The translations under genes were made by a program, and so were the position numbers. A model generated the notes under the pieces. That model saw only the letters and a list, made by a program, of their open reading frames with translations. It searched no databases and was not told the origin of the DNA. 64,000 nucleotides of DNA, taken from assembly GCF_932294415.1 (NCBI RefSeq), contig NC_065535.1:94070862-94134861 (forward strand), read 5' to 3'. This DNA is from Quercus robur (taxonomy: Eukaryota; Streptophyta; Magnoliopsida; Fagales; Fagaceae). Every line of letters starts with the position of its first letter. Position 1 is the stretch's first letter. Shown here piece after piece: positions 19,855 through 59,200 of the stretch.

Positions 19855-20308
19855 CTGTTATTAAATCTGAAATGTTTTAGATAATTCTTTCTAGCATTGT
19901 ATTACAGCAGATATTAGTTTTTTTTGTCAATGGATACCTTATCAGATTTAGACCGTGATGACCAAAATTCACAGCTTTTTGCCAATACAGAATTGTAATA
20001 TTTCCAGCATTAACTCGTCTACAATAAGATGTGATTAATTTCCCCTTGATGCTTAACCATATAAGTATGAAGAAAGAATTATAAACATATAATGTTCCCT
20101 GGAAACAGTTAAAAATACTCACATTCACTGATTTCTGCTTCAAAGTTTTGTACTTCGTTGCAATATGAATCTGTAATATTAGAACATTTTAAACATTAGT
20201 AAAGTTTAAATATAACAGTGGACAAAAACCTACTGTTTACAATATAATTGACAATTTAGTTTACATTATCAATAACTTGAAATAATATTAATAAACAGTA
20301 TGTGTTAC

Positions 20309-23300
20309 CTTTAGGCAAATTATCAAATATTTCTTTGTAGACAATATTTTTTGTATGAAAATGATCACTAGTATCATTTTCTACAATGAGTATTCTAAGG
20401 CCATCTTTACTTGTAACTTTGGATACGGCAACATATAATTGTCCATGACTGAAAACTGGTCTATCTAAATAAAGTCCAACACGTTGCAGAGATTGACCTT
20501 GGCTCTTATTAATTGTCATAGCAAAGCAAACAGATACTGGAAACTGTCTTCTTTTCAGTACAAAGGGCCATTTGGAATTAGAAGGGGATAAGACTATTCT
20601 TGGTATACACACCTTTTCTCCAATATGAGTTCCTGATATTATTTGAGCTTCCAAAACCCATTTTGATAATTGAGTGACTAAAAGTCTAGTACCATTACAA
20701 AGTCCATTACTTTGGTTTAAATTTCGAAGTAACATTATTGGTAGCCCTACTTTCAATCTGAGTTTATGGTTTGGAATACCAGGAAACTTCAATGAATTGA
20801 GAAACTCTATTGGATACATTACATCTTGGTCTAGAATGTTGCTTGAAGCTTTACATAATGAATCTGCACTAAGATATGTCTCTTCATCAACATTAATAAG
20901 ATCAATCATGTAATCATTTATGTCTTCTACTACTTCATTCGTTGGAGCTAAAATTGTTCTCTCTTCTAAATACTTAGAATCGTTGAATTTTGTATCGAAA
21001 TCTAGATAGGTAGCTTTTACAATATCGTTGAAAGGATGAGCACCAGGATGAATTAGTAAATCATGCGGTATTTCAATCAATGCTTCACCTTCATTATTAC
21101 TTAGTTCACCATCACCAATTTTCAACATCCATTCAGCAAATTCCCTTGCTGCAATATCACCTGGGTTTTGTGTCAACCTCATATTTATTGTCAAAATGAA
21201 AACTTTGCAACTGTTCCATAATGATGACTTATTAATTGATGCTTCAACTATTTGTTCTCTTCGTGCTTTTGATACCACTGGTAATATTTTTCTGAAATCA
21301 CCACCAAGAACAATAGTTTTTCCTCCAAAAGGTGTCTCCCCACTATTTGGGTTAGAAAAACGTAATATATCTCTTAATGACCGATCAACAGCTTCAAAAC
21401 AATTTCGGTGTGCCATAGGAGCTTCATCCCAAATTATAAGACTTACTTTTGTCATAAGTTCTGCAATTTGTGAACCTTGTTTAATACCGCAAGTTGAACT
21501 GTCTGTTACATTTATTGGTATTTGAAATCTTGAATGAGCTGTTCTCCCTCCAAGCAACAATAATGCAGCAATTCCAGATGTTGCAATTGCAATAACTATC
21601 TTCCCTTCTGAGCGCAATCGGCATATAATGGTTTTCCAAAGATAAGTCTTTCCAGTTCCTCCATGTCCATAAACAAAAAAGAAGCCACCTTTATTCTCTG
21701 AAACAGAATAAATTACTTCATCATATACCTTTCTTTGATCAGTATTAAGACCAGAAAAAAGTTTAATATGTTCTGCTGCCAAAGAGTTTCTATCATAATC
21801 CAATTCTTCTTGTAATACTCTATTGTTACTTTGTCTGAGAAGTAATGTATTTGGATATGGTATTGACTTAAATTCGTGCAAAGATCTGCCACTCTTTACC
21901 AAAATCTGTTCAATTTCACATAGTGCGTAGTTCTGTAATTGAGAGTCATCAAGATGTAGGTTGTCATATCGTAAAACTGTTCTTTGACGATGCAGAATGT
22001 CCTCAGATAACAACTGCCAATTTGAAATCCATAATTTATATGGATCTGCAACCTCACAAAAAATCAACATTGTGACAAAAAGTTCTCGTAGTTGTTTTCC
22101 CGAAGCCCAATATGATGCATGATTCAAAGCTTCGTGCCACTCTTTATCATCATCAAGCAAACCAAGTGCATAACATGTTGATCTGAAAGTTGGATATACA
22201 ATATTATTTATAGTTCGTATTTCCTTAAATGATCTAGCTCCTTTAATAACATTAAGTAGCATCCGCAAATAAAACCGTTCTAAACTTGCAAGATGAGCAT
22301 AATATATACGCCCAATACATCTTCCAGATTTTCTCAATTTCCATTCTTTGTCTTTTCTATGCCAAACCCATTTAGTAGGAAATTCAGAATAAGTCAATTC
22401 CCTTGCTTCTTCATACAATGCATTCGCTTTCATCCATTCTGTAAATTTGCTTTTTCCGATATCTAGCTTGTCCACAACATTATTTAAATAATCAGTATCT
22501 TCAAAAACAACTGGTTGTTCGTCCTCATTGTGAAAACTGAGTCTTTGAACAGCAGGCTCTCGATGGTGAATTGCAAATTCAAATATCCTCCAACACGCCT
22601 CTATGGCAGACACATATCTACAATTTAAATATGTCTTAACTTCATCAGTATCTGTCATATGTTGCATTCCAGTAGAAGAATCAATATGTAAATTTTCTTC
22701 AAGAATCAAAGTTGCACGATCAGGTCCTTTTGTTATATATTTAAATAAATACTTTATAGATCTTGAACGATTACACCACTCAACATTTATGTGTGCTTGA
22801 AATTTCACCAACAGATCAATATTGTGTGGAACTATAAATCGATTATCAAGTCTGACCTGATTTCTTTCAACGAATCTTCCATTATTCCTTCTTCTATATA
22901 CTGGGAAACCATCTTCATCAACAGTTGTTTGCGAACAAAATTTTTTAGGGAAGTGTTTTGTACATCTGTTTTCAATCATACAGCTTGCCCTTGAATTAAT
23001 AGAACCGCAAGGACCATGGACCATATATTGTTTGACAGCTTCATAAAGTAAAGGTTCTTCATTGAAATCTGAAATTTCTGCTGAAATTATTCTATCAATT
23101 TCTGCTGCTGTAGGATGCTTGTCATCATGATGTAGAAAAAGTAAAATGTGTGCATGAGGTAACCCTCTTTTTTGATATTCAACAGTGTACACAACTGGCA
23201 CCAAAACAATAAGTTAGTTACATTTGTATAGATTAATTATTAAGCCAAGTAAAGAAGAAGGGAAAAATATTTTAAATATAAAGTTTAGAATACCTGCAAT

Positions 23301-25217
23301 TACTTTCCCAAAGTGTTGGCCATGCTTTAAATCATTTAAGAGTTGATCAAGCTTTATCTTGAACACTCTTGCAACCACATCAAGCCGATCTTCTACTTTC
23401 TGTCCAGGTTTCCTAGATAGGAAAAGATCAATTTCTGGCCATTTTGTGTTGCATGTGAAGGTAATAAAAAGGTCCGGATAACCTGCCCATCTACAGATCG
23501 CCATTGCATCTTGATAGTTTTCAATCATATACCTTGGACTTCCAGTGAAACTTGAAGGTAGAACAAATCTTTTGCCTGAAGATGCAGGGGTGGTATCTCC
23601 TCTCATAACTGCATCTTTCAATCCTTTATACAATTCTATTCTTAATTTGTCTTGGTTCTCTTTTACCCACATAAGCCGGATTTCTTCTATACATGTGTAG
23701 GCATCTACATCAAATTGTTGAAACAATCTACCACCATATATCAGTGTATGTCCCTCATGTTCACGTTCTTGCAATCGATATGCATAGTATTCTCTCATTG
23801 TAACAGAATCAGTTGTATCAGTTCTGATTCCATCTACATTACTATACAAAATGCCGAGTCTAAAACCATCCTCACCATATGGGAACAAAAGGGGATATTG
23901 TAATGCCATGTATGAAGGATGCAACACATTAATACGTTGTAATCCTCCTTCTTTTAATTCAACAATAATATCGCGATGTGCATTTTCAGCACCAATATCA
24001 CCAACGATAATTGCTGCAATCTCTGAACATGTAGGCAGGTTATATTCTCTTCCATCTGTAGTTAGGGAGCCAATAAGACGTAATCTTAAATGGTGAACAT
24101 CAGTATTAATGAAACGGTCTCTAGACATCCGAAATATCTTCACCAAAGTATTTGATTCATCAAACATTTGGACCAATGCTTCAACAATAGATGGATCAAG
24201 GTCACTATCAATTTGACCATTGCTAAAGACGTTCATTCTATGTTGAACTTCATTTTCAGTATCATAGAAATATAATTGTGCAAATTGTGGATCCTGACCA
24301 TCATTAGGAAGAAGAGTTCCAATTCTATGATGGTTTTGGCCATTAAGTTTAAAAATGTAAGGGTGTCTTCCATCGTTAATTCTACTATCTACTTTACCAC
24401 CCATAGATGTCATTGCAAACATTGCATTATAAGTTCTGATTAGAGTTCTGAATGTTTTAGATCGATCACTACCAAGAGGATCTAAAAGCTCATCTATAAG
24501 AGGAGGTGCTTTCCTAAGCAAAGGTAACTTAACCTTACCCTCCATACAACAGAGAGAGAATTTTGGGTTCCTAGGCCTCTTAGATTTGACTGTTCTCTCT
24601 TCATACCATAAAATTGTTCCACAATGCACGCATACATAAGAAGGCGAGCCAAAATTCCAAGGTTCAGTAAATTTTCCTATAAGAATTTTAAAATATAAGA
24701 ACAACAATAATAATGTAAACAAAAATGAATATCAATATTTTTTTTCCTTGTAAATTTAAGTTAAGTTATTTACTTGGAAATTCTTCACAATCACTCTGAT
24801 TTTCTGATTCTTGGATTTCTTGAGGTATATCACAATTATTGAATCCATCTTCTACCAAAGTATCATCTGTACTTATGTTCATTCTAGTTTCTTCATAGGA
24901 ATGTTCCATGTCAATATCAATATCTAATAATCAAATGTCAATTGAAAGTATTATGTTCTAATTTTTATGAAGCAATGTTTAAAGTATTTATAAATAGAAT
25001 GTGGCAGTAAGAGAAACAAACCTCTTGATGCATAAAAATCCATATTTGTACCAGGTGAATGCAACATAGAGCAGTCATGAGTTAATGCTGTTCTATTCTT
25101 CTTGTTTTTTTTTCCTCTTTTCAGCAATGACCATTTTCCTGGATTTCCTCGCCTGGGTAAATTTATTTTGTAAACTATTTTTCTTTTCATGCCATTTTCT
25201 GCCGGATCTTCTCTCAA
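20309..25217 (-). CDS. Helitron Rep/PIF1-type helicase (RepHel)
   Basis: The protein is the Helitron transposase: an HUH/Y2 Rep nuclease that nicks and rejoins DNA, fused to a SF1 PIF1-family helicase. Minus-strand exons are about 25217-25022 (start uncertain, basic N terminus), 24923-24774, 24676-23294 and 23194-20309; splice phases match at each join. The Helitron_like_N region is read from WNFGSPSYVCVHCGTILWYE onward. The HUH motif is GLPHAHILLFLHH just after 23194, and the two-tyrosine motif is YLFKYITKG (about 22757-22730). Helicase motifs are GHGGTGKT (about 21671-21648), IIWDEAPMAH, VLGGDFRKILPVV and, near the C terminus, INKSQGQSLQRVGLYLDRP. The two large exons are open throughout. 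From the last donor, AAAG|GTAACA, further short exons could extend the frame to a TGA at 19969-19971. Apart from the 5' exon choice I see no break. Confidence 0.88.
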
Positions 25218-29530: not shown

Positions 29531-29882
29531 GATACTTTGCCATGAATACCAAGCGATAACCTCTAGATACTAGGCACTTGAAACTCGAAACTCGAAAAAG
29601 TTCAAGCACTGCCCGATGAAGTGAACACAAATACTGAAATACATCAACGTAAATTGGGCTCATCAACATCAAGAACTATACCTACACATCAAACCAATGG
29701 TGGTGTTCTTATTTTGCTGTGAATGCTAAGCGATGACCTCTCAAAACTAGGCACTCGAATCTTGAAAAAGCTCAAACACTGCCCGATGAAGTGAACACAA
29801 ATACTGAAATACATCAACGTAAATTGGGCTCATCAACATCAAGAACTATACCTACCACATCAAACCAAGAGTGGTGTTCTTG
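29531..29882. repeat. Tandem duplication of the NPF gene 3' end
   Basis: Two copies of about 175 bp lie head to tail (about 29531-29706 and 29707-29882). They share GAAGTGAACACAAATACTGA and the following 70 bp almost unchanged. The copy nearer the gene contains the real last codons and stop; the outer copy repeats that end and the 3' untranslated region. The start of each copy is more diverged, so the duplication is not brand new. Confidence 0.75.
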
Positions 29883-32800
29883 CTTTGCACACATCTTCTT
29901 TACTTTCCATTTGTTCTAGCCCATTATCCTTCATTTTAGCCCTTGCATCCTCACTAGGTCCATAAGCCCAACAACAACCAAGAAAATATACAAAATTAAC
30001 CACACACATTATGGTGATGAGCCAATAGTAATAATCCAAGTGACCCTCATTCAGATTCCTAGAAAGCCAACTCTCATTCCCTCCTTTCTTTGTAGCTTTA
30101 TCAACAATCTTCACCAGAAAACTACCCACCAAGTTAGCCACAGCCATTCCCAGCGTGAAAAGAGCCATTGCAATACTTGACATGTTCCTTGGAAACTGAG
30201 AGAAATAGAATTCAATCTGGCCAATTGCATTGAAAGCCTCAGCCAACCCAAACAAGCAATATTGTGGAATTAGCCACATTGCAGACATGTCCATCACCAC
30301 CCTTGGCTTATCAGCAAGGCCTAGATCAATGGCAATATTCCTCCTTATGTTCTCAACTATCGCAGACACAGCCATGGCCAAGGCAGATAGTACTAACCCA
30401 ATTCCCATGCGCATTTTTGTTCCAAGCCCGCGTGGCTTTCCGGTAAGCTTTGCAAGTAATGGAACAATTGCACGGTCATATATGGCGACCCAGATAGTTA
30501 ATGTGATAATTGTGAACACAGTGAATGATCCTGCTGGAATTTGAATCTTGGGACCAAGGTGTCGGTCCATCATGCTAGCTTGGAGTGTGGAAAATGAGTT
30601 TTGGTTCAAACTAACTAGTATCATGAAACCAGTAGACCACATGGGGATGACTCTCAGCAGTGCTTTGAGTGATTCTACTTGATCTATTGTGCAGAGGTTC
30701 CATGGATTAATAGGTGAGCCTTCTGGGTTTAAGTCTTTCTGAGGATCTCTGATAATGCAAGCTCTGTTGAGATACCTGCTCAAAGGACAAAAACATGGTA
30801 AGAGAAATTTTCCTGTTGGTGTATACCTTTTCTTTTCCCGAATTTTTATTTCATTCACAGTTTCCATAAATATTCTGTTAAAAACTTGGCTTTCCTTGCA
30901 CTCAACAGAACACGAAACCAATGACAGTATTGTTTTGATGTTCCTTAAAATGAGTCATTTTAAGGAAACATTTTTAAACATGTTTTCACCATTAAGACTC
31001 AAAATAAATTTTTTCACAACTTTTGAGGTGACATGTTAAAATTAGTGCTAATAAAAATAGTGTTACGTTAGTAGGTACCCTTCTCGTCATTATTAATAAA
31101 TTATTTTAGAAAAATTTTAACATTATTTTTATGAAAAATATAAAAAATTGTAAAAAAAATTAATTATTTTTTTTCTTTCCTCATAAAAAGTTTTTAAAAA
31201 TATTTTCTAAGTCAAATACTCTTAGAATATTATTTAACTTTTCCCATAAAAGTATATGTTATCAATAATGATATTGTTCTAATCATGACTTTTCATGTAA
31301 CCCCTTATGAAAAAGATGGTGAATTTTTTGCCTCTCACATTACTATTACTATTTTCAAGAACATGTCCAAGCATGTTCCTGCACAGTTTTGTAGTGTTTG
31401 CATGTCCAAATTTAACAATGACATTGATATGGTACCTTAGTTTATCAGTTGGAGCAATGATGTTTGGGTCTTTGCCATAATGGTACTCTACATTCTTGGC
31501 CGAGAGTGGAAGATTTCTTTTCCTGAAGGCAGCCACTAGTACTTGAATAAAACCAATAAACAAGCTTTTTTCAACCTTCACTTTTACATAAAGAGAAGAG
31601 CCAAACAAGAACATTAGGGCTGAAACCACCATTAGAATTGCAGGAACTCCAAAACCAACTTTCCATCCCAAGTGGTCTTGAATATAGACAATGATAGTCA
31701 ATGCAAGAACTGTTGAAACTCCTATTGATGCATAGTACCAACTGAAGAAGCTCTGTAAAAGTCTCTCATTTTTGGGGTTGTCTTTCTTGTCCAACTGGTC
31801 TGCACCAAAGGCCATGGAACATGGTCTGATGCAGCCAGCACCAATGGACATGAGCCCGAAAGAGGATAGCAAGACAATGAGTTGACCAGGACTGGCTGAG
31901 CCGCAATTGCTGCTAAATTGGGCACAAGGAGGAGGCTTTAACTTTGGAATTACGGCTGTTAGCCATAGTAGTGTCATGCCCTATGACAACAATTTATGAA
32001 AACAAATATTATAGCATTAGATAAAATCCAATATTAAGATAGGAAAATAATAAATGGGTTATATATAATAGGATTTGAATTTATGGTGCTTATTTCAACA
32101 TTATAAATTTTGGAAAATTATTGAATACTTTGGGAGTACAATAAATGCGTACTCTCCCCTTTCACATGAATCGTGGGTTCCACCATGAATTTAATTAGTG
32201 AGATCCACAATTATGTAAGAGGAAAGAGTATACATTTATGGTACTCCGAGAGTATCCAATAATTACCCATCAATTTTTTGAGTTATGTTAAAAGAATGGT
32301 TAATAAATCATTTTAAGAAAATTTTTATACTAATTTTATAGGAAATTGAAAAAATTTGTCAAAACATTAAATTTTTTTCCCATAATTTTTTTAATTAGTT
32401 CACTAATAAATGTCCTTAGGACATTTATTAATTTTTCCTTTATTTTTTATCATTAGATTAAAACAGCAATAAATTTTTTAGGTGAAATTTAAATTTAAAT
32501 GTTTTTATTGATGATGAGAGATTTCGTTAATTGAGTTAACTCTAACTTAAAACAAGTAATAAAGGCAAGTATATTTTAATTAATCATTTACGTTTAAGTG
32601 TGAACTTAGACCTCAATTGGCTAGTCAAAATTGATGTTTTGACCAAATTATCATGGAACTTGCTTTATTATAACATTCACATCAGTCTCCTTAATTTTTT
32701 AGCTAAACTAACCTAAAAAACTCTACTTTTACTAGTTTAGCTATCTTTTACTAGTTTATCTATCTTTTTTTTTCATACACATGCATCAGCCTCAATACTC

Positions 32801-38109: not shown

Positions 38110-39240
38110 AACTACAAGTTTTGGACAGAACCAAGGCCTTGCATGGTCCTCGGACTCAAGCCTATGGGGAAACCAACTACTTGAAAGAAAAAACTAAAAG
38201 TTTTGGATAGAACCAAAGTCTTGCATGGTCCTCGGACTCAAGCCTATGGGGAAACCAACTATTTGAAAGAAAAAACTACAAGTTTTGGACAGAACCAAGG
38301 CCTTGCATGGTCTTCGGACTCAAGCCTATGGGGAAACCAACTACTTAAAAGCAAAACCACAAGTTTTGGACAGAACCAAGGTCTTGCATGGTCCTCGGAC
38401 TCAAGCCTATGGGGAAACCAACTACTTAAAAGCAAAACCACAAGTTTTGGACAGAACCAAGGCCTTGCATGGTCCTCGGACTCAAGCCTATGGGGAAACC
38501 AACTACTTAAAAGCAAAACTACAAGTTTTGGACAGAACCAAGGTCTTGCATGGTCCTCGAACTCAAGCCTATGGGGAAACCAACTACTTGAAAGAAAAAA
38601 CTACAAGTTTTGGACAGAACCAAGGCCTTGCATGGTCCTCGGACTCAAGCCTATGGGGAAACCAACTACTTAAAAGCAAAACCACAAGTTTTGGACAGAA
38701 TCAAGGCCTTACATGGTCCTCGGACTCAAGCCTATGGGGAAACCAACTACTTAAAAGCAAAACCACAAGTTTTGGACAGAACCAAGGCCTTGCATGGTCC
38801 TCGGACTCAAGCCTATGGGGAAACCAACTATTTAAAAGCAAAACCACAAGTTTTGGACAGAACCAAGGCCTTGCATGGTCCTCGGACTCAAGCCTATGGG
38901 GAAACCAACTACTTAAAAGCAAAACCACAAGTTTTGGACAGAACCAAGGCCTTGCATGGTCCTCGGACTCAAGCCTATGGGGAAACCAACTACTTAAAAG
39001 CAAAACCACAAGTTTTGGACAGAACCAAGGCCTTGCATGGTCCTCGGACTCAAGCCTATGAGGAAACCAACTACTTGAAAGAAAAAACTACAAGTTTTGG
39101 ACAGAACCAAGGCCTTGCATGGTCCTCGGACTCAAGCCTATGGGGAAACCAACTACTTGAAAGAAAAAACTACAAGTTTTGGACAGAACCAAGGCCTTGC
39201 ATGGTCCTCGGACTCAAGCCTATGGGAAAGCCAACTACCT
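38110..39240 (+). repeat. 81-82 bp tandem array, about 14 copies
   Basis: Units contain AAGTTTTGGACAGAACCAAG, GCATGGTCCTCGGACTCAAG and GGGGAAACCAACTACTT. Spacing between successive units is 81 bp, or 82 bp in the variants reading GAAAGAAAAAAC. Because 81 is a multiple of three the array is open in several frames on both strands, so the long apparent proteins here are a repeat effect and not genes. Neighbouring units are nearly identical, which points to recent homogenisation. A degenerate unit follows near 39250. Confidence 0.93.
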
Positions 39241-39641
39241 AGAAGAGACAACATGGGGTTTGGACACAACTTGGACACTATATGGCCCTTAGAATCTACC
39301 CTCGGATCCTCAACACCAAGAGGATTGATGCAATACAGGGCAATGTGTTGTCAAAAATACAGTCAAAATCCCTCACAGCTCGGCTACCTTCTCGGATGAA
39401 TTATTTAGCGTTTATCGTTCTTGGACGGACGCCTTGCATGCATTACGAAGCGCTCAACCGTTATCTCGGTTAGTTTCAGGAGTTTAATTTACTGTTAATT
39501 ACCATTACTATACTTGATAATGTCAATAAGTTCAAATTAGTAGGAATTTATTTCAAAGTTTTTCCTACCCTAAGCATCATTAAAGGAAAATGCGCATTTA
39601 ATATTCATGCACAAAGTAGTGATTGCAAAAAAGAAAAGTAT

Positions 39642-41835: not shown

Positions 41836-44228
41836 TCCAGTCTTGAAGTCTCATGTTCTCTCCCATTTTAAAACTGATGAAGGACACGCGGCAAAAATAA
41901 AATCCAAAGGTCACAAAGATGCCACGCCAAATACAACTTTTTTCTCACCTAAGAAGTAGTTAGGTGGGTTACTATTTCAAGGAGGAAAAAATAAAGAACA
42001 AAGTTAGAAACCCTACAAACTCATCATATATATTTATATTGAGGATGAATTTTGAAAATCTAACCGTTAGATTGCATGTTCTTATTACATCCTTAATGCT
42101 TACAAAATTTCAAAAAAATCAAAAATCGATTGTTATGTCATCAAACAAATATTATAATTTCAAGTGTTTGTAATCTAAAGTTGTATATAAAAAATAAGTT
42201 AATTGATCAAATAGTAAATAATACCTGATTTGAACGAAATTTGATATGCATATTAAGAACATAAGCAATATGAAATTCAACGGTTAGATTTTCAAAATTT
42301 ACATCAAAAAAAGAAATATATGAGAAGTTTGAAGAGTTTCTCTCCAAACTAATTTGGAGAGAAGTTTTATTCAAAAATAAAAATACATAATACTCCTGTC
42401 ACATGGATATATATCAAAATATGATCCTGCCATTTTTCATCATTTAAAAAAACAAATGTAGCCTTAAATGTGTTTTCTATCATCCAATATGTTTTATTTT
42501 TCTACTACTCAATTTTAATAATACTGTAAAATAATTTTAAAATATATAATTTTAATTTATTTCATATTTTCAATAAGTAAAAACATCTAAGTTGTAACTA
42601 TCAACGATATGTTTTGGAACTGATCCAAATAATGATTTTGAATATTAATATTTTTGCTATTTAGTTGTCTCCGTGTAAGCTTGTTCACTATGGTTTCTAT
42701 TTCCTCCAAAAAAAAAAAATGAAAAATAAGAAGAAGAAGGAGCCAATCTAAAAGATGTACAAAAATTAATGGGAAATTCTAAAGTTATTGTCAATTGTAT
42801 TTTAAGAAGCTTACAAATTAAATTGATAATAAATGTGATTGTTGTTATCTCAAAAATATATAAATAAATTTTTTAATTACTTTTTTTTGGCTTGTTTTTG
42901 AAAATTGACATATAAGTTTATGAGGTTTATCTAATAAAAATTTGTAATATCTTTAGCATTACCCAAAATTGTCTTCTCTGCTTTTTCCAGGACCAGGCTG
43001 AGTATTATGTCTCAAAACTCATTATACGTTGTTATTGGGACACCACAGAAGTTGGCATTCCTACTCTAGCATGTATGCAAAGAACATCAACTAAGCTCAT
43101 TCCAAATGTCATTTTAAGTTGTGCTTATTCAACAGCCCTGTTAGCTGGTGTGCCAAGCACAGAAGCAAATAAACTTATTTCCTTTTCCAGGTTGTGAAAA
43201 TACTTCTTCATTAAGCTGCATTTCAACTATAAAAGCATGGTATCATAGTAAGATATGAGAGAAAAATGGCCCCTGCGATCGTGTCAAAAAGAAACACAGT
43301 AAACCAGTGATACATTATAGGGAATGCTACATATGCATATTCCACGCTATTGCTACTTACCTATTGTATAACTTCGAAGATCACATAAGGAAAATTACAA
43401 GGAAACATTGAACACTCTAATATGGGATTGTCCTTGCAGCATCCCAATCAAAGTCAGAGAAGAAAAAGTTCGTGAATATCTAGTGAAATAACAGAGCTGA
43501 AATTGAAATTATCAAACTTCTTGCTTAATCAAGCTATAGAATTTGTCATCTAATGGACAACTTCTTGCCAGTGAGCTTTAGCTCAAACGGAAATTTCTCT
43601 CCTCGCAAGAATCAAAACCCACTGGTTGTGTGTATGAGTATAAACATTTCACGAAAAAATTATTTTCAACCTCATTTCTGAGTTCTAACTTCGTCACCAT
43701 GAGTTGTATTATCTGTGTCCTCAAATTTATCAGCTATTTAAGCAGCAGTTATGAAGTCCACTAACTCATTTAATACAGTATCTTGACCTGAGACATAACA
43801 TAATGAAATGAACAAACTGATTAATGCTGTTACCAAGTAAGAATGAAGCTCTTCTATGATAGAGAGAGGAAAAAAAAAGGCAAAATAAAACACAAGATGG
43901 AGTCTCATAGCCCAAGTACTGCCGATACTTCTTAAAGAAACAGTGCATCAATCAGATTAGTGTTGAAAACAAACACAAATCTGATATATGACATGTCACA
44001 GAGATGATTCAAATGTATTTATCCTAGTAGTTTAGTAGTTTTCTTCACAATCAATCTGCAAAGAGACAAGCAGATACCTAGCCAAGCAAGCCAAACACAC
44101 ACTAAACCATATGTAATTTAGCATAGTTCCCAATTTTATAGCAAGATATTCTCTGCGGTTACTAGTACATTCCAAATAATTCGTGTTGTATAGGCCACAA
44201 ACAAGTACAAATTTTTAGGCTCATCTCT
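41836..44228. other. Intergenic DNA, one unassigned open stretch
   Basis: Mostly AT-rich. On the plus strand 42991-43196 is open for 68 codons after TTTTCCAG, starting DQAEYYVSKLIIRCYW and ending in TGA. I do not recognise it, so it may be chance or part of a transcript. No other gene is supported. Confidence 0.3.
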
Positions 44229-44372
44229 GCATATAAATAAGTCTCGTTTGTAAACGAAGCACACAAGTTTATTTCCAAAGTTTTCCACCACCTAGAAAAT
44301 GCATATAAATAAGTCTCGTTTGTAAACGAAGCACACAAGTTTATTTCCAAAGTTTTCCACCACCTAGAAAAT
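44229..44372. repeat. 72 bp perfect-looking tandem duplication
   Basis: A 72 bp unit starting GCATATAAATAAGTCTCGTT occurs twice head to tail (44229-44300 and 44301-44372) with no difference that I can see, implying a recent duplication. No gene is evident around it. Confidence 0.9.
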
Positions 44373-45523: not shown

Positions 45524-48500
45524 ATGGCTGATCGAGAGGTCCAATATCCATCAACTTCTCATTCCTACAAATTGATTAGTATAATTTCTAGCAGTGCTAG
45601 TTCCACGGTTTACAAGGCCAAGTATTTGAACACTGTGGTGGCAATCAAAATAATTCATCTTGAAAAATCGGGTTCAAATTTGGAGAGTGGTTTACGTGAT
45701 GCAAGAGAAGTCTCACATGAAAACATTCTTACTGCCTACTGTTTCTTTAGATCTAATGATTGTATTTGGGTGATATTGCCATTGATGTATTCTTTATCAT
45801 TGATAAAAGATTATTTGCCTCATAGGTTAAACGAGCGACAGATTGCCATTATTTTGAAACCAACTCTAACGGCATTGTCTTTTCTTCACAGACAGAATAT
45901 ATTTCACAAAAACTTGAAGCTATCTAATATTTTGATAGACTCGAATGGATCAGTTAAAATCTCTGACTTTGGTACCTCGAGCTCAAGTTCCAAGTACGTA
46001 AAAAGCAAAAAGTCAGTGTTATATTGGATTGCACCAGAGGCAAGAAACTCACGACGACAACGTAATAATGACAATGCTAAGGCTGATATATGGAGTTTTG
46101 GAATTTGCGCATTAGAATTATTTCATGGTGGTCCTCCTATAACTTGTCTCCCTAATTCAAAGCCTTTGCTACAACAAATTAGAGAAAGGATTGAATTACC
46201 AGATGGGTATGAGAATTATATTACAAATCCAAGAAAATTGTCCGAAAAATTCTGTGAAGTAGTGAAAAGTTGCTTGAGTCCAAATCCTGAAAGCAGGCCC
46301 ACAACCGAAGATTTGCTATGTTACCCATTTTTCGAGAATCGTAGGAATAGTGAGGTTTGTCTCAAAAAACTGGTGAATGAGGTTGAAGGCAAGGTTAGGG
46401 AGATTAGTGAACCCAATATTACTTTGGGCAAATTTGATGAAACGTTAGGCTTATTAAAATCAAGTGGTGGAGTTGATGATAGAAGGGTTACCATGCAGAT
46501 TCGAGTACCTTCTCATGCACACACTGAGGTAATCTATACTTTTGAGTTTACTTTGCATTTAAAATTTTGAACTCTATATTAAACGTGCTATTTGAACTTG
46601 ATTTATAACAAAATGGAGCATGACCTTATGATAACCTATATGTGTATTTGCATAGCTATGACTTTTTATTAGAGTCTCAAATTATATGTGAGGGTTTTAA
46701 TTAGATTTATATTTTGAATGCTTTAACTCAAGAGTTGAATCCTATTTTACAATGTTATTTAATATTTTTTTAAGTAAGGTTCATTTAGTTTGTCAAATTT
46801 GGTTTCTCTGTATTAGAGGTAACACGAGTTCCATCCAACAAAAAATAAGAAAATAATAATAATAAGTTCTAATTCTGCTACTTTCTTTTTGGTTGTTAAA
46901 TGCAGAATATTGAGGCTGATGGTATGGTTCATAGGGCAACTAAGCGAAGTAGAGTAGTACACGCTAATTCCACTCAGGTAAATCTATACTTTGAGTTTCT
47001 ATTGTATTTAAAAATTTTGAACTTTATATTTGAACTCATTGTCAAAAATAATATTGAGACTGATGGTACATTCTTTGTGGTTGTTAAATGTAGAATATTG
47101 AGTCTGTTGCTACAATTGATAGGGTTACTCAATTTCAAACAATCAATGAGTCAACTCAAGCAAATGTAGGTCCTAGTGCCAATGGACATGTAAATGTGGG
47201 TATTCAGTCTGAAATTGTTGAACCACCCAATGGCTCAACTCAGGTAAATCTATACTTTTGAGTTTCCATTGCATTTAAAATTTTGAACTTTATATTTGCA
47301 TTCATTGTCAAAAATAATATCAAGATTGATGGTACATTCTGTGTGGTTGTTAAATGCAGAATATTGGGACTGATGGAACAATTGATAGGGTTACTCAACC
47401 TCAACATTTTCAAACAATCAATGAGTCAACTCATGTAAATGTTGGTCCTAGTGCCAATGGACATGTAAATGTGGGTATTCAATCTGAAATTGCTGAACCA
47501 CCCAATGGCTCAACTCAGGTAAATCTATACTTTTGATTTTCCATTGCATTTAAAATTTTGAACTTTATGTTTGAATTCATTGTCAAAAATAATATTAAGA
47601 TTGATGGTACATTCTGTGTGGTTGTTAAATGCAGAATATTGGGATTGATGGAACAATTGATAGGGTTACTCAACCTCAACATTTTCAAACAATCAATGAG
47701 TCAACTCATGTAAATGTAAGTCCTAGTGTCAATGGACATGTAAATGAGGATACTCAGTCTCAACTTTTTGAACCACCCAATGGGTCAACTCAGGTAAATT
47801 TATACTTTCGAGTTTCCATTGCATTTAAAATTTTGTACTTTATATTTGAACTCACAAGCTCTTACAAGAAAAGAAAGTGTTATTTGAGCTTGGTCTATGA
47901 CAAAATGGAGCAACAGAAAGTACCTTAATAACATTTTGAGCATATGATCATTGTGTGTGTGGGTTTGTATAGCTATGAATTTTAATCAATGACGAAGCCT
48001 TAATTATACATAATGGTCATAATAAGATTTTGGGGTCTATTTTGAATGCTTTAGACCACAACAAGTTAAATCATATTCTACAATGTAATCTAATATTTGT
48101 TTTGTGGGGTTCATTTAGTTTGTCAAATTTGGTTTCACTAGATTATGGCATTTATTAAAAATAATAATAATACTAAATAACGAGTTCTAATTTGCTACCT
48201 TCTTTTTGGTTGTTAAATGCAGAATATTGAGACTTATGGTATAGTTGGTAGGGTTTCTCAATCGGTTCCTAGTGACAATGGACATGTAAATGAGGGTACT
48301 CAATCTCAACCTTTTCAACCACCCCCTGGGTCAACTCTGGTAAATCCATACTTTTGAGCTTCCATTACATTTGAAATTTTGAACTTTATATTTGAACTCA
48401 TCGTCACAACAAGCTCTTACAAGAGGTGAGGAAGTGTTATTTGAGGTCTATGATAAAATGGACCAATAGAAATTATCTTACTAACATTTTGAGCTTATGA

Positions 48501-49462
48501 TCATCCTGTGTGTGGGTTTGTAGAGCTATGAATTTTATCTATAACAAAGTGTAAATTGTGAGTTAAATACTATTCTACAAATTTGTTTTGTGGAGTTCTT
48601 TTAGTTTTTCAAAATCGGCTTCATTAGATTAGAGATAACGATTTCCATACATCAAAAAATATAAAATAATAATAACAATAATAACAAGTTCTAATTTTGC
48701 TACTTTTTTTTTGGTTTTTAAATGCAGGATATTGAGACTTATGATACGGTTCGCAGGGCTACTCAGCGGATTGGAGTTGGTCGTGCTAGGATTCCTCCAT
48801 CTCGACCTTCTCAATTACAACATGAGCCAACTCTAGTAATTAAGTGTCCTAGTGGCAATGGACAGGTAAATGAGGAGGGTCCTCACTCTCGACCTTCTAG
48901 ACCAGCCACTGAGTCAACTCCGAGTCCTAGTGCCAGTGAGACCAATGAGGCTATTACTATGGACTATACTGATGATCTAAGTCTAATTTTTCAAAGGAAT
49001 TGGCTGAGAAATTGGGATGAAAAGTTAAAGCAAAAGATACCTGAGATCTCTCAGCTTTCAACTAGGGTGAAAGATATGAATGCCTTCCTGGATGATGAAA
49101 TAAGGAACATCACAGAATATCGTAATGAAATAAGAAACGTCATAGAACATCATACTAAAATAAGGAACGCCACACATCTAGAAGGGTTGAAAGATTTCCT
49201 GCTTAATCCCAATATCCTCTCAAGTCCTAGGCAAATTGTGCTTGATAGTATGAGCTTTGGGGAATTACTCAATGCCTTATTAGATTGCATGAAAAAGCAA
49301 ATGAATGAGGTTGGTAATTTAAGGAATTTATATTTACCATCAGATTACAGTGTGTCTGAGCAAGAGCAAATGATGATGAAGAGGTTGCTTCAGTCAGTGT
49401 TGACCATGCTGCACGAGGAGGAGGACATCATTCAACATTTCAAGACTCAACGTTCTTTTTAA
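45524..49462 (+). CDS. BLUS1/STE20-like pseudokinase with amplified middle exons
   Basis: Seven exons, all phase 0: 45524-46528, 46906-46977, 47094-47243, 47360-47518, 47635-47793, 48223-48339 and 48728-49462, giving 798 residues. Exon 1 (335 residues) is a kinase fold closest to plant STE20 kinases of the BLUS1 type: VVAIK (Lys42), NILIDSNGSVKISDFG, WIAPEA and KADIWSFGICALEL. The catalytic HRD is HKN (Asn130 replaces Asp) and the glycine loop (about residues 19-31) is Ser-rich with no glycine, so phosphotransfer is unlikely; Lys42, Asn135 and DFG 148-150 remain. Exons 2-6 encode related low-complexity modules starting NIE/NIG and mostly ending GSTQ. The last exon adds a mostly helical, charged domain (WLRNWDEKLKQKIPEISQL onward) that I do not recognise. 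A role as a scaffold or regulator is an inference. The exon-intron reading fits throughout with no in-frame stop. Confidence 0.8.
46529..48727 (+). repeat. Tandem exon-intron array inside the pseudokinase gene
   Basis: Each module is an acceptor (GGTTGTTAAATGCAG or near), an exon, and an intron that starts GTAAAT (GTAATC in intron 1) and continues CTATACTTTTGAGTTTCCAT-like. Exons 3, 4 and 5 are 50, 53 and 53 codons with very high identity and sit 266 and 275 bp apart, separated by short introns of about 116 bp. Introns 1, 5 and 6 are longer (about 377-429 bp) and share an extra stretch around AACATTTTGAGC and GGTTTGTATAGCTATGA. So there are a long and a short form of the same module. Confidence 0.85.
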
Positions 49463-55117: not shown

Positions 55118-56284
55118 TCATTGCAGATAAAGGCTTTCCACATATGTAGCTGCCTCCATTCTTGGATTGGGATCACATAATATACTTGTACAGGTGTGAT
55201 CTGTCAAATTCCATTCTACCAATTTGTAATAGCATTCTCCGGTTATTCCAACACTTTTAACTTGAGTCTCCCGCATTAAAACCTTTTCACCATTCTTTGA
55301 CGCGCACATAGGCCTCAAACAAGTGCCCAAATATGGAATGGTCGCCAATCTAGTCCAAGATTCCTTCATCACCCATAGCTGAACACACAAGTTTTTGCGG
55401 GATTCGCCGGTGCACACAGATAGACACAGGTGTTCTCCAAAAGTCCCCAACTCCCATAAACCTGTTGTATAGAAACATTTTCCTGATGACCCGTCTCTTA
55501 CGCAATACAAAACAGATTCTGGCCATGGCAGCTCATGAAATATCTCCTCTGCTAAGTCAAAATAAATGATTGACGGCTTCCCATATTTCATAGCACTCCA
55601 ATAAATTGCCCCATTGCAGTAGGTAGTCTTTGGGGTCAATGGAAGACTGCAGTTATAAATATTGTCCACATCCACCAGAATTGTCTTCCAAGTAAAGGTC
55701 TTGATTGAAAAGATCTCAATCCTTTTTATATCAAAAGGGAAAATCTGGTAGGGCCTTACTATCTTATGATCATCAGTGGAATAATCATAGCCAAAACCAA
55801 AACGGTAAAACCAACAAGACATTGAATCAGGTGTTGATGTTGGTCTTGGTATGTTTTTGTGACTTTTGGTAGATGGGTTCCAAACCAAATATTCAGATGT
55901 ACGTTTGCGCCTATTATATAATTCAATACATACCAAGCCATTGCAAGAAGCCAAGTTTGTCTCAACAAATTCTTCACCCCACAATGGAAAACCTTGAAAA
56001 TCAACATCAACTGGTTGACCATGAACACAGGTTTGAAATAGTGCTTCATAACCTAACGATAAGACACAATTGTCAGTAAAAACAAGGACGTTCATGCAGC
56101 TGGGGTTTTGAGATGCTCTCTGAAAATGGGATTTAGCGAATTGGCGACTACTGATCAAAGTGTGCCATGCTTTGGATACGCACTTGAATCGCATGAGAGA
56201 CTTCACTGGTAGTCTTGAAAGTATGTCCTCAACGAGGTCATTTGGGATCGTAAAGCTTCGCCGCCGTGCCTTACAAATTCGCAT
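55118..56284 (-). CDS. F-box protein with FBA-type associated domain
   Basis: A single-exon 388-residue protein. The F-box is at about residues 12-55: [20 protein letters not shown] followed by [22 protein letters not shown]. After it comes the F-box-associated interaction region: [11 protein letters not shown] (about 112), [31 protein letters not shown], then [33 protein letters not shown] and [13 protein letters not shown] in the usual order. Proteins of this CPR1/At3g-type family are adaptors of SCF ubiquitin ligases: the F-box binds SKP1/ASK and the FBA part picks the substrate. Length and motif order are normal and no break is seen. A 5' untranslated exon may lie about 1.6 kb upstream (57890-57960), because CCCTAAAAG|GTACTC there has donor form, but this is a guess. 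The substrate is unknown. Confidence 0.92.
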
Positions 56285-59200
56285 GCTTTAGTTCAAGTCC
56301 TTGGCTCTATAATCAATATATATATAGAGAAAGAAAAAATGATTAAATAGTTATATTTTAAATCTAATAATTAAAAATGTAACAAATTAAAATTTATAGT
56401 TTCAAAAGTATTAAACCCTAAAAATTCAAAAAGTAACAAATTAAACCCTCAACTCATTAGAAGTAAAATGGCAGGTAGCAGCAAAATGAAAGGGTCCATC
56501 CTAAACAAAGTTGTGTTAATTTGGGGTATTGTGTGCTGCCCTGGCTTTCTAAAAGTTGTTGGTTGTGCCCCTGCAGTGCATTGCATAATTTTATGTGGTA
56601 GGACACCTAAGAAGCCAAATCAGTTATAAATGATTAGCCAAAAATATTTACAAAAATAATAATAGAAAAATAATCAGTTATATATATATATATATATATA
56701 ACTATGGAACCAAATATATATATAACTGATTACGCTTATTTATAGTTTCTTGATTAATGGTTGCCTGTCTAGTAGTGAGTATTCCATTGTCACTGTATGT
56801 AATTTCTTATCCTGTCTAAGGAATTTTCTGCAGATCCATGTAAAGTCTTCTGATTAATGGTTGTACTTTTTAGTGTTTTTGTTTTGATCCATAAAGCTTC
56901 CCAATTAATCAAGATATAGTTTCTTGACTAATTGTCCAGGCACAATTCTTCAAGCCATACCATCTGAAATAAGAGAAAGTATCTCGTGTGTTGAATATAT
57001 GCATCCTCCTCATAACGTGTGGATCCCTCACGGCTGTGAGGTACATGGTGATAGGGAGGATGCATATAACCTATTACAAAATTATTGCTAAAATAAAAGC
57101 ATTGAATCTCTCAACAATCATTGCATTCAGCATGGACAGAAAATCCCTGCTTCACATCTTGTTTTATCATTCCATCCTCAATATTTTAATAAACTCAACC
57201 ACCTTACAGCCTGCCTTGAATACATCCGTATGCAAATGGGTTAAAACCAAATGATGCCATATATATAATAAGACAGTCAAATTATGACTAGCCATTAGTG
57301 GGATAAAAATAATGCATCAATAAGACAGATTGATACAATTTTCTGTATAGAGACAATATGCTCATAACACTTTCCTTCTATTTAACATAAACCCAATCTG
57401 CTCAAAACAAGTAAAATTCCCACTGCATCAAGCCACCCCCAATAAAAATAAAAATAAAAAGCTTCCAACCCTAGAATAAAAATAAAATAGAATGAAAGCC
57501 TGGAAAACTATACACCATGTTAAAGGAATAAATCACCACAACCCCACCTTAAACTATTACAATCTCCATCAATTGTTACTCCCACCACCAGCACCACTGA
57601 TATTAGTAGAAGGAGAGAGAGAGAGAGAGAATACTTCCTAAGAAAATTAATAGCTGAAGAAGTTTACAGCTCACGTACTGCTAAACTGAACCATGATTCC
57701 AATATCAAATTCCCCAGTGTCTTGCTTCACATTTTTTTTTTAAATGTATCACTGATATTGTTACAAGTTACTACTACGACTATGCACACTACTCAACTGG
57801 GCTTATCAAAATATAAAAAAGTTTAACAAGAGTATCCAATCAAATCACGAAAATGAATTGCAAACGAAAAAGAAATGGAAGAAGAGTACCTTTTAGGGTT
57901 GACGTGACAGCAAAATCTGGTGATGGGCGGAGAACAAGCTTGGAGAGCAAATCTGGGCAGATGGAATAAATATAGTATTTATTTACACTTCATTTGTTTC
58001 GAAATAAAATATTTGACACTGAAAATGTTTTCATTTTATCCTGTTTGGTTGTATACATGAAAATGCGGAAGAAATCATTTTCTAGTGTTTGGCACGATTT
58101 AAAATGAAAAAATTTCCTCACAATTAGAGAAAACCCAAACTCAAGATTCTCAACTAATCAAGCTCTAATTCTCTGATTTCAATCAAAATACATCCATGAA
58201 TCAAAGCAGATATTTTCAAACCCAAACTAGAATTTCTTTACAAAGTCACCCAAACTCAAATTAGCTACCAAAAATAAAAATTTGGTATGGGGTGGAAAAT
58301 GCATGAGTTGGGTAGATTTTGGGTTGAGTCATTGATGGGTCATGTACCTAATTATCCCTTTATTACCCATTTAAATACCCATTAGGTACCCAACTCATTT
58401 AATCTAGTAACCCATTTAACCCATTTAAACAGGATTCATTCTCTACAAGTTTCCTGCATTTTCTCAGCAACAGTTGAAAAACACACTTGAAATAGCTCAT
58501 TTTCTTTCACTTTTCTTTTATTTTCTCAGCAACCAAACAGAAACAATTACGCTTAAAAGTTCATTTTCTTTCACGTTCTTTTACATTTTCTCAGACACCA
58601 AACAGAGTTGATACAAACCACACTTCAAATAGCTCATTTCAAACATAAACAAAAGAAATAGAAATAAGAAAAAACAGAGTAGAACCGATACTGACTCAAT
58701 GGAAAAGGAGATTGAGAAGTTGAGATTCGCGTGTGGATCGAGAACTGGAGAGCTCCGACGAGTTCATATTTGGCTGTCTAACAAGATCTTCGATTCACCA
58801 TAGATCTACAAAGTATTTGAGACGAAGCGCTTGTTCTAATCTTGCACAAATGCCGAAACCTCACTAAGCGCGTCTCCTGAATTTATTGATGCAGGATGAT
58901 CATGTAGTCTAGGAAGTTAAAACATGAACTCGTCGGAGCATAGCTCAAAATTTTGAACATTATCTGAATTTGCCGAAAACATGATCATTCTAGACTACAG
59001 AGACATGAGAAAGGAGACAGTGTGTTGGTATAGTTCCACAGATAACCATTCAACAACTTTAAACCCCCAAGAGTCAGAGAGAAAATTTTGTATATTTATT
59101 GACAAGAACCTATTCAAGACCCAAGAAAGCATTTCAACGAACAGATGGTAGGCAATAACAAAACTCCACAATAGCATACAACTGGGATTTTGCATAGCTC

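Follow-up and report, generated by a model that had tools for sequence, protein, structure and literature searches.

Locus and gene model

The window, meaning the whole 64-kb stretch of DNA that was analysed, has a plant-like base composition with a GC content of 0.26–0.44 in 2-kb bins. On its forward strand lies a predicted gene at 45524–49462, which runs from an ATG at 45524 to a stop codon through seven exons and six GT-AG introns and comprises 798 codons. The exons were joined by script at donor and acceptor motifs picked by eye, without a gene finder, and all borders given here are predictions.

Exon 1 (45524–46528, 1005 nt) encodes a STE20/SPAK-OSR1-like kinase domain. It is followed by a series of short exons, each separated from the next by an intron of one of two forms. 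Exon 2 (46906–46977, 72 nt, 24 aa) has a first half most similar to the first half of exon 7. Next come exon 3 (47094–47243, 150 nt, 50 aa), exon 4 (47360–47518, 159 nt, 53 aa), which is a hybrid, exon 5 (47635–47793, 159 nt, 53 aa), which contains an internal 84-nt half-repeat, and exon 6 (48223–48339, 117 nt, 39 aa). Exon 7 (48728–49462, 735 nt) carries a diverged last module at its 5′ end and then the C-terminal region and the stop codon. The long intron form is represented by intron 1 (46529–46905, 377 nt), intron 5 (47794–48222, 429 nt), and intron 6 (48340–48727, 388 nt), and the short form by intron 2 (46978–47093), intron 3 (47244–47359), and intron 4 (47519–47634), each of 116 nt.

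An earlier reading of this DNA, referred to here as the preliminary description, placed an array of amplified modules at 46529–48727. This interval is exact, its two ends coinciding with the start of intron 1 and the end of intron 6. The same description assigned phase 0 to all six introns, which follows from the gene model as the lengths of all seven predicted exons are multiples of three. The coding frame is free of stops in all seven exons and each of the other two frames has at least one stop per exon; for comparison, intron 2 is likewise stop-free in one frame. GC content is 0.37–0.43 in exons versus 0.24–0.28 in introns.

Several other features were noted in the window. At 44228–44372, ~1.2 kb upstream of the gene, a 72-bp unit is present in two perfect tandem copies. 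A tandem array at 38185–39242 (forward strand) encodes LDRTKALHGPRTQAYGETNYLKAK-like repeats and is open in more than one frame; its Pfam matches are to bacterial-looking domains and appear spurious. The reverse strand carries a coding stretch for a POT-family (PTR2) transporter at 29860–31980 and one for an F-box protein at 55118–56287. Also on this strand, at 20256–24731, Helitron_like_N and PIF1 helicase domains are encoded by two open frames that abut, with an in-frame stop between them. This stop perhaps lies within a short intron, as the Helitron_like_N match is split there.

The kinase domain and the encoded protein

The whole protein matches Pkinase (PF00069) with an E value of 2.3e-40, and the best matches among PDB sequences are SPAK and OSR1. 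Alignment to PDB kinases revealed that the catalytic HRD is replaced by HKN at 45905. In the glycine loop GSG has become SSS near 45587, with both loop glycines replaced by Ser, and the alpha-C Glu is an Asp, in LRDAR near 45692. Motifs that are retained include VAIK (45638) with its Lys, DFG (45965), and APE (46031). The loss of HRD, of the loop glycines, and of the alpha-C Glu suggests that this STE20/SPAK-like kinase is likely inactive, which supports as probable the pseudokinase assignment of the preliminary description.

The STE20/MAP4K signature around APE is GTxxWMAPE. An intact copy of this signature was not found, the gene encoding SVLYWIAPEA where SPAK has GTPCWMAPEV. The motif that marks the BLUS1 subclade, given as S(G/A)WNF (PMC8415026), is also missing, since a reading by eye of the 798-aa translation found no WNF.

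The segment between the kinase domain and the C-terminal region had been described as a linker, and its composition lends some support to this. With linker limits set by the analyst, its charge-hydropathy value of 0.415 is only a little past the boundary (0.426) towards disorder, and the kinase domain falls on the ordered side (0.466 versus 0.425). The linker may act as a disordered spacer under weak constraint on its length. Exon 7 alone gave no Pfam match at 0.001, and outside the kinase domain the whole protein has only sub-threshold Pfam matches (IFT43 at 0.029, DIRP at 0.089). Exon 7 as a query against a prokaryote contig collection returned 22 stretches and exon 1 against a viral contig collection returned 17; none was confirmed in either case, as expected for these collections. 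An imperfect 30-nt coding repeat in 2.5 copies is present in the C-terminal exon at 49095–49168.

Kinship of introns and exons

The preliminary description called the introns homologous, and kinship was found in 15 of 15 pairs. For pairwise scoring, 8 nt were removed from the 5′ end of each intron and 20 nt from its 3′ end. Real scores of 54–234 exceeded the best of 200 Markov shuffles for every pair (shuffle maxima 30–42), and a control set of 272 random pieces of the window from outside the gene scored at most 46. Short-form introns are 92–97% identical to each other and long-form introns 79–86%. Between the forms identity is 76–83% over 81–116 aligned columns that partly include the relic region described below. 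Introns 3 and 4 form the closest intron pair, with 4 differences in 116 positions.

The exons form a comparable series. Exons 3–5 had been called near copies and are 89–93% identical (E3–E4 0.933, E4–E5 0.918, E3–E5 0.887). Exon 6 is 80–83% like exons 3–5, the start of exon 7 is 69–79% like exons 3–6, and exon 2 is 71–75% like the other module exons over 48–72 columns. The top gap-free match extends for 447 nt at a shift of 275, pairing the stretch from within exon 3 to the interior of intron 4 with the stretch from exon 4 to intron 5. Tandem Repeats Finder reports a core at 46972–47854 with a period of 275 and 3.2 copies. Adjacent exons and introns are hence homologous together, with matches that cross their borders, and the frame is kept by symmetric introns of the same phase, as in tandem exon duplication.

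Introns could also resemble one another through repeated insertion of an introner-like mobile element, and the homology of the introns beside the much diverged exons 2 and 7 would suit such an origin. However, the 447-nt gap-free match runs across exon–intron borders, and searches of the 64-kb window found no further copy of the gene, of an intron, or of a module (blastn E 1e-3; tblastn E 1e-2). Homologous introns at unrelated sites, which would characterise introners, are absent within the window. Introner elements were rejected on account of the border-crossing matches and are considered very improbable as the source of the intron kinship.

Trees of the modules are poorly resolved. Bootstrap values were 36–47 for introns only (using the part common to all introns), 68–81 for exons only, and 67–82 for the concatenated modules, with the intron tree grouping intron 2 with intron 5 at a value of 39. 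Given these low values, no order is asserted for the origin of the long and short forms.

A hybrid exon

Exon 4 consists of an exon-5-like 5′ part and an exon-3-like 3′ part, with the break at approximately 47436–47444. At 17 informative gap-free sites, exon 4 agrees with exon 5 at positions 8, 10, 14, 17, 18, 75, and 77, and with exon 3 at positions 11, 85, 95, 113, 116, 119, 127, 130, 133, and 150. The break statistic was reached in 13 of 20000 permutations, in a test that omitted a 9-nt indel and the three sites at which exons 3 and 5 agree and differ from exon 4 (84, 123, and 134). Site 11, which was counted, contradicts the break. Exons 4 and 5 have the 9-nt indel in common, and counting it would add weight to the left block. 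When exons 6 and 7 are used as the reference, our own reading of the sites identifies 8, 18, and 75 on the left and 113, 119, 127, 130, 133, and 150 on the right as shared-derived, the remaining informative sites being changes in a single exon or of unclear polarity. The hybrid nature of exon 4 also explains the conflict that arises between the closest introns (3 and 4) and the closest exons (3 and 4).

As the break lies inside the exon, the recombination ignored module borders. The preliminary description, in which whole modules were amplified, needs correction on this point. Exon 4 has the form of a hybrid copy at a recombination junction, a form that gene conversion may produce as well.

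The most likely route for the latest gain is unequal crossing-over after mispairing of exon 5 with exon 3. Such an event would have produced the hybrid exon 4 together with two copies of one intron, now introns 3 and 4. It predicts both the doubling of the intron and a middle exon with the front of exon 5 and the back of exon 3. Conversion among tandem copies likewise yields mosaics, and exon 4 might have become a hybrid in this way among modules that already existed, rather than through the crossover that added it. Against this, the close match of introns 3 and 4 (4 differences in 116) and the nearly clean switch in exon 4 fit a single crossover, and gene conversion is regarded as the rather unlikely source of the hybrid.

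Exon-start remains in the short introns

All three short introns contain a copy of the beginning of a module exon, here called the exon-start relic, and none of the three long introns does. The relic of intron 2, AATATTGAGACTGATGGTAC, lies at 47050–47069 on the forward strand and matches the start of every one of the six module exons with 2–3 mismatches. Its counterparts on the same strand, at 47316–47335 in intron 3 and 47591–47610 in intron 4, depart from it at 3 and 2 positions, respectively. A search of both strands of the 64 kb with this 20-mer, allowing up to 3 mismatches, found nine places, namely the start of each of the six exons and one site in each short intron. Only 0.04 places are expected, and none of 100 shuffles contained nine.

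Against the exon starts, no more than 1 of 500 shuffles equalled the intron 2 relic in score. The relics of introns 3 and 4 are weaker: scored against single exon starts, the intron 3 copy was equalled by as many as 245 of 500 shuffles and the intron 4 copy by as many as 23, and the case for these two introns leans on their alignment with intron 2. Such weakening would follow from decay of the relic. When the relic segments were scored against the three long introns, 27–171 of 500 shuffles did as well.

Each short intron is laid out as ~66 bases from the beginning of a long intron, then the exon start, then ~30 bases from the end of a long intron. The 3′ end differs from that of the long introns by 4–6 mismatches in 30. 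It overlaps with the relic at GGTAC/GCTAC, a pattern expected of a deletion at a microhomology. An exon start sitting between the two intron ends does not fit an origin of the short introns by simple partial loss of a long intron. The stepwise growth put forward in the preliminary description consequently stands in part. Amplification of exon plus intron in frame is borne out by the kinship of the copies and the border-crossing matches, but the short intron is not merely a trimmed long one.

Judged from the layout, the relic would have arisen in one of two ways: either a module was swallowed into an intron, or an acceptor with 20 exon bases was duplicated locally. The relic by itself does not separate these. 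Under the first route, one module seems to have died before the latest gain, with its acceptor lost and nearly the whole exon deleted. The module would have been skipped in frame and cut down to its first 20 bases, and fusion of the introns on either side would have given the short intron of 116 nt, later multiplied as the array expanded. Under the second, the 3′ splice site and the first 20 exon nucleotides would have been copied without any exon being swallowed, after which the first acceptor decayed and the middle of the intron was lost. The final layout would be the same, and a plant parallel has been reported in almond and peach (PMC6141779). Local duplication does require that the intron middle was lost in a further step, and no clear dead acceptor precedes the relic (TTGTCAAAAAT versus TTGTTAAATGCAG). 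It is nonetheless a serious contender, with a likelihood somewhat short of even.

Half-repeats and donor-like copies

Exons 4 and 5 each contain an internal repeat of 84 nt, with a score reached by 0 of 500 shuffles in each exon and by 5 of 500 in exon 3. The repeat ends in a donor-like CAT|GTAAAT, reading ...CAACTCATGTAAAT in comparison with ...CAACTCAG|GTAAAT at the exon/intron border. In exon 5 the donor-like copy (...CAACTCAT|GTAAAT) occupies 47695–47715 on the forward strand and resembles the border of exon 5 and intron 5. A like copy is found in exon 4 at 47420–47440, on the same strand. These exons may carry a decayed donor along with the first six bases of an intron. This reading is held loosely, as a nearby second CATGTAAATG is an alternative source of those bases.

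A further donor-like sequence was noted in exon 7, where CAG|GTAAAT at 48866 resembles the donors in use and stands where exons 3–6 have CAT|GTAAAT. It is a possible cryptic 5′ splice site.

Indels, selection, and coding status

Gaps were counted in the 10 pairs among exons 3–7, with exon 2 excluded, and, of the 15 intron pairs, in the 6 that are long–long or short–short, the pairs being non-independent in both sets. Gap lengths are multiples of three in 12 of 14 cases in the exons versus 5 of 37 in the introns. The two exceptions, of 2 and 35, come from a single pair of exons that differ in length by 33, which points to gap placement. That indels keep the frame in the exons and not in the introns argues that the frame is held by selection.

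The tests on substitutions are weak, the pairs being non-independent and exon 7 hard to align. dN exceeds dS in 8 of the 10 pairs among exons 3–7. dS exceeds dN in all five pairs with exon 2, on 19–23 poorly aligned codons. Two of ten Fisher tests fall below 0.05 (E3–E7 0.0085, E4–E7 0.024), and comparison of nonsynonymous change with the matching introns gave 0.025 for E6–E7, 0.13 for E5–E6, 0.10 for E4–E5, and 0.80 for E3–E4. The pattern suggests weak constraint on the linker copies, possibly with accelerated change. Positive selection is not claimed, as few of the non-independent pair tests are below 0.05.

The degraded kinase motifs and the excess of dN over dS in those 8 of 10 pairs would also be seen if the locus were a decaying pseudogene with a neutral array. 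Yet 798 codons remain open and the indels keep the frame in the exons (12 of 14) and not in the introns (5 of 37), making a pseudogene improbable.

Taken together, the gene probably encodes a STE20-like protein, itself a probable pseudokinase, in which the linker lengthens and shortens as tandem exon–intron modules recombine with one another. With phase-0 introns bounding every module, gain or loss would leave the frame intact and be tolerated. A more far-reaching proposal sees here a working exon accordion. In this, exon and intron identity would be exchanged (exon starts into introns 2–4, a decayed donor into exons 4–5), copies would be gained and lost by recombination within exons and would diversify faster at amino acid than at silent sites, and the length and sequence of the linker would be variable traits of a signalling pseudokinase within this plant lineage. 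This larger proposal is doubtful.

Comparison with known systems

Tandem exon duplication is a known process, of which the gene offers a well-marked example in a plant. In the CENP-C gene of grasses, pairs of exons from the poorly conserved middle of the gene have been repeatedly duplicated and deleted in tandem so that protein length varies, and positive selection has been reported for the duplicated exons in some grasses (PMC549713). Both cases involve the middle region of a plant gene. However, the units in CENP-C are exon pairs and those described here are single-exon modules, and the CENP-C case is supported by several species and cDNAs. The available portions of the CENP-C description contain no exon-start relic in introns (PMC549713).

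A parallel to the relic is offered by the Ma/RMja TNL resistance genes of Prunus, in which post-LRR exons are repeated. In RMjaGC2 of almond and Prupe.7G065400 of peach, the last intron holds a duplicated piece of intron and 32 nt of the last exon including its acceptor (PMC6141779). Exon amplification in a plant gene, and an intron with a duplicated acceptor and exon start, are common to both systems, but what is repeated in the Prunus resistance genes is a protein domain, whereas the present repeat is a linker piece of 39–53 aa. In Drosophila, duplicated splice-like motifs turn coding sequence into intron (PMC2891723). This recalls the donor-like and exon-start copies, which likewise involve duplicated coding sequence at a splice-like motif. 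However, the Drosophila cases are new introns in conserved genes and here introns were copied along with exons.

With the plant MAP4K family, including BLUS1, the gene shares a STE20-type kinase. The loss of HRD is also seen in Arabidopsis MAP4K9, which has lost DFG too and is without the disordered C-terminal part, whereas the present gene retains DFG and has a long linker after the kinase domain; repeated linker exons are not mentioned for plant MAP4Ks in the accessible text of that source (PMC8415026). Shuffling of modules of the same phase is said to be minor in plants (PMC6335736).

In our judgement, the gene seems unusual in the number of traces of the process that it has kept. Several steps of module growth are readable in it, among them the hybrid exon and the possible exon remains within introns. 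It offers a clear system in which to ask how exon number changes, and whether the length of a linker in a pseudokinase is selected or merely tolerated.
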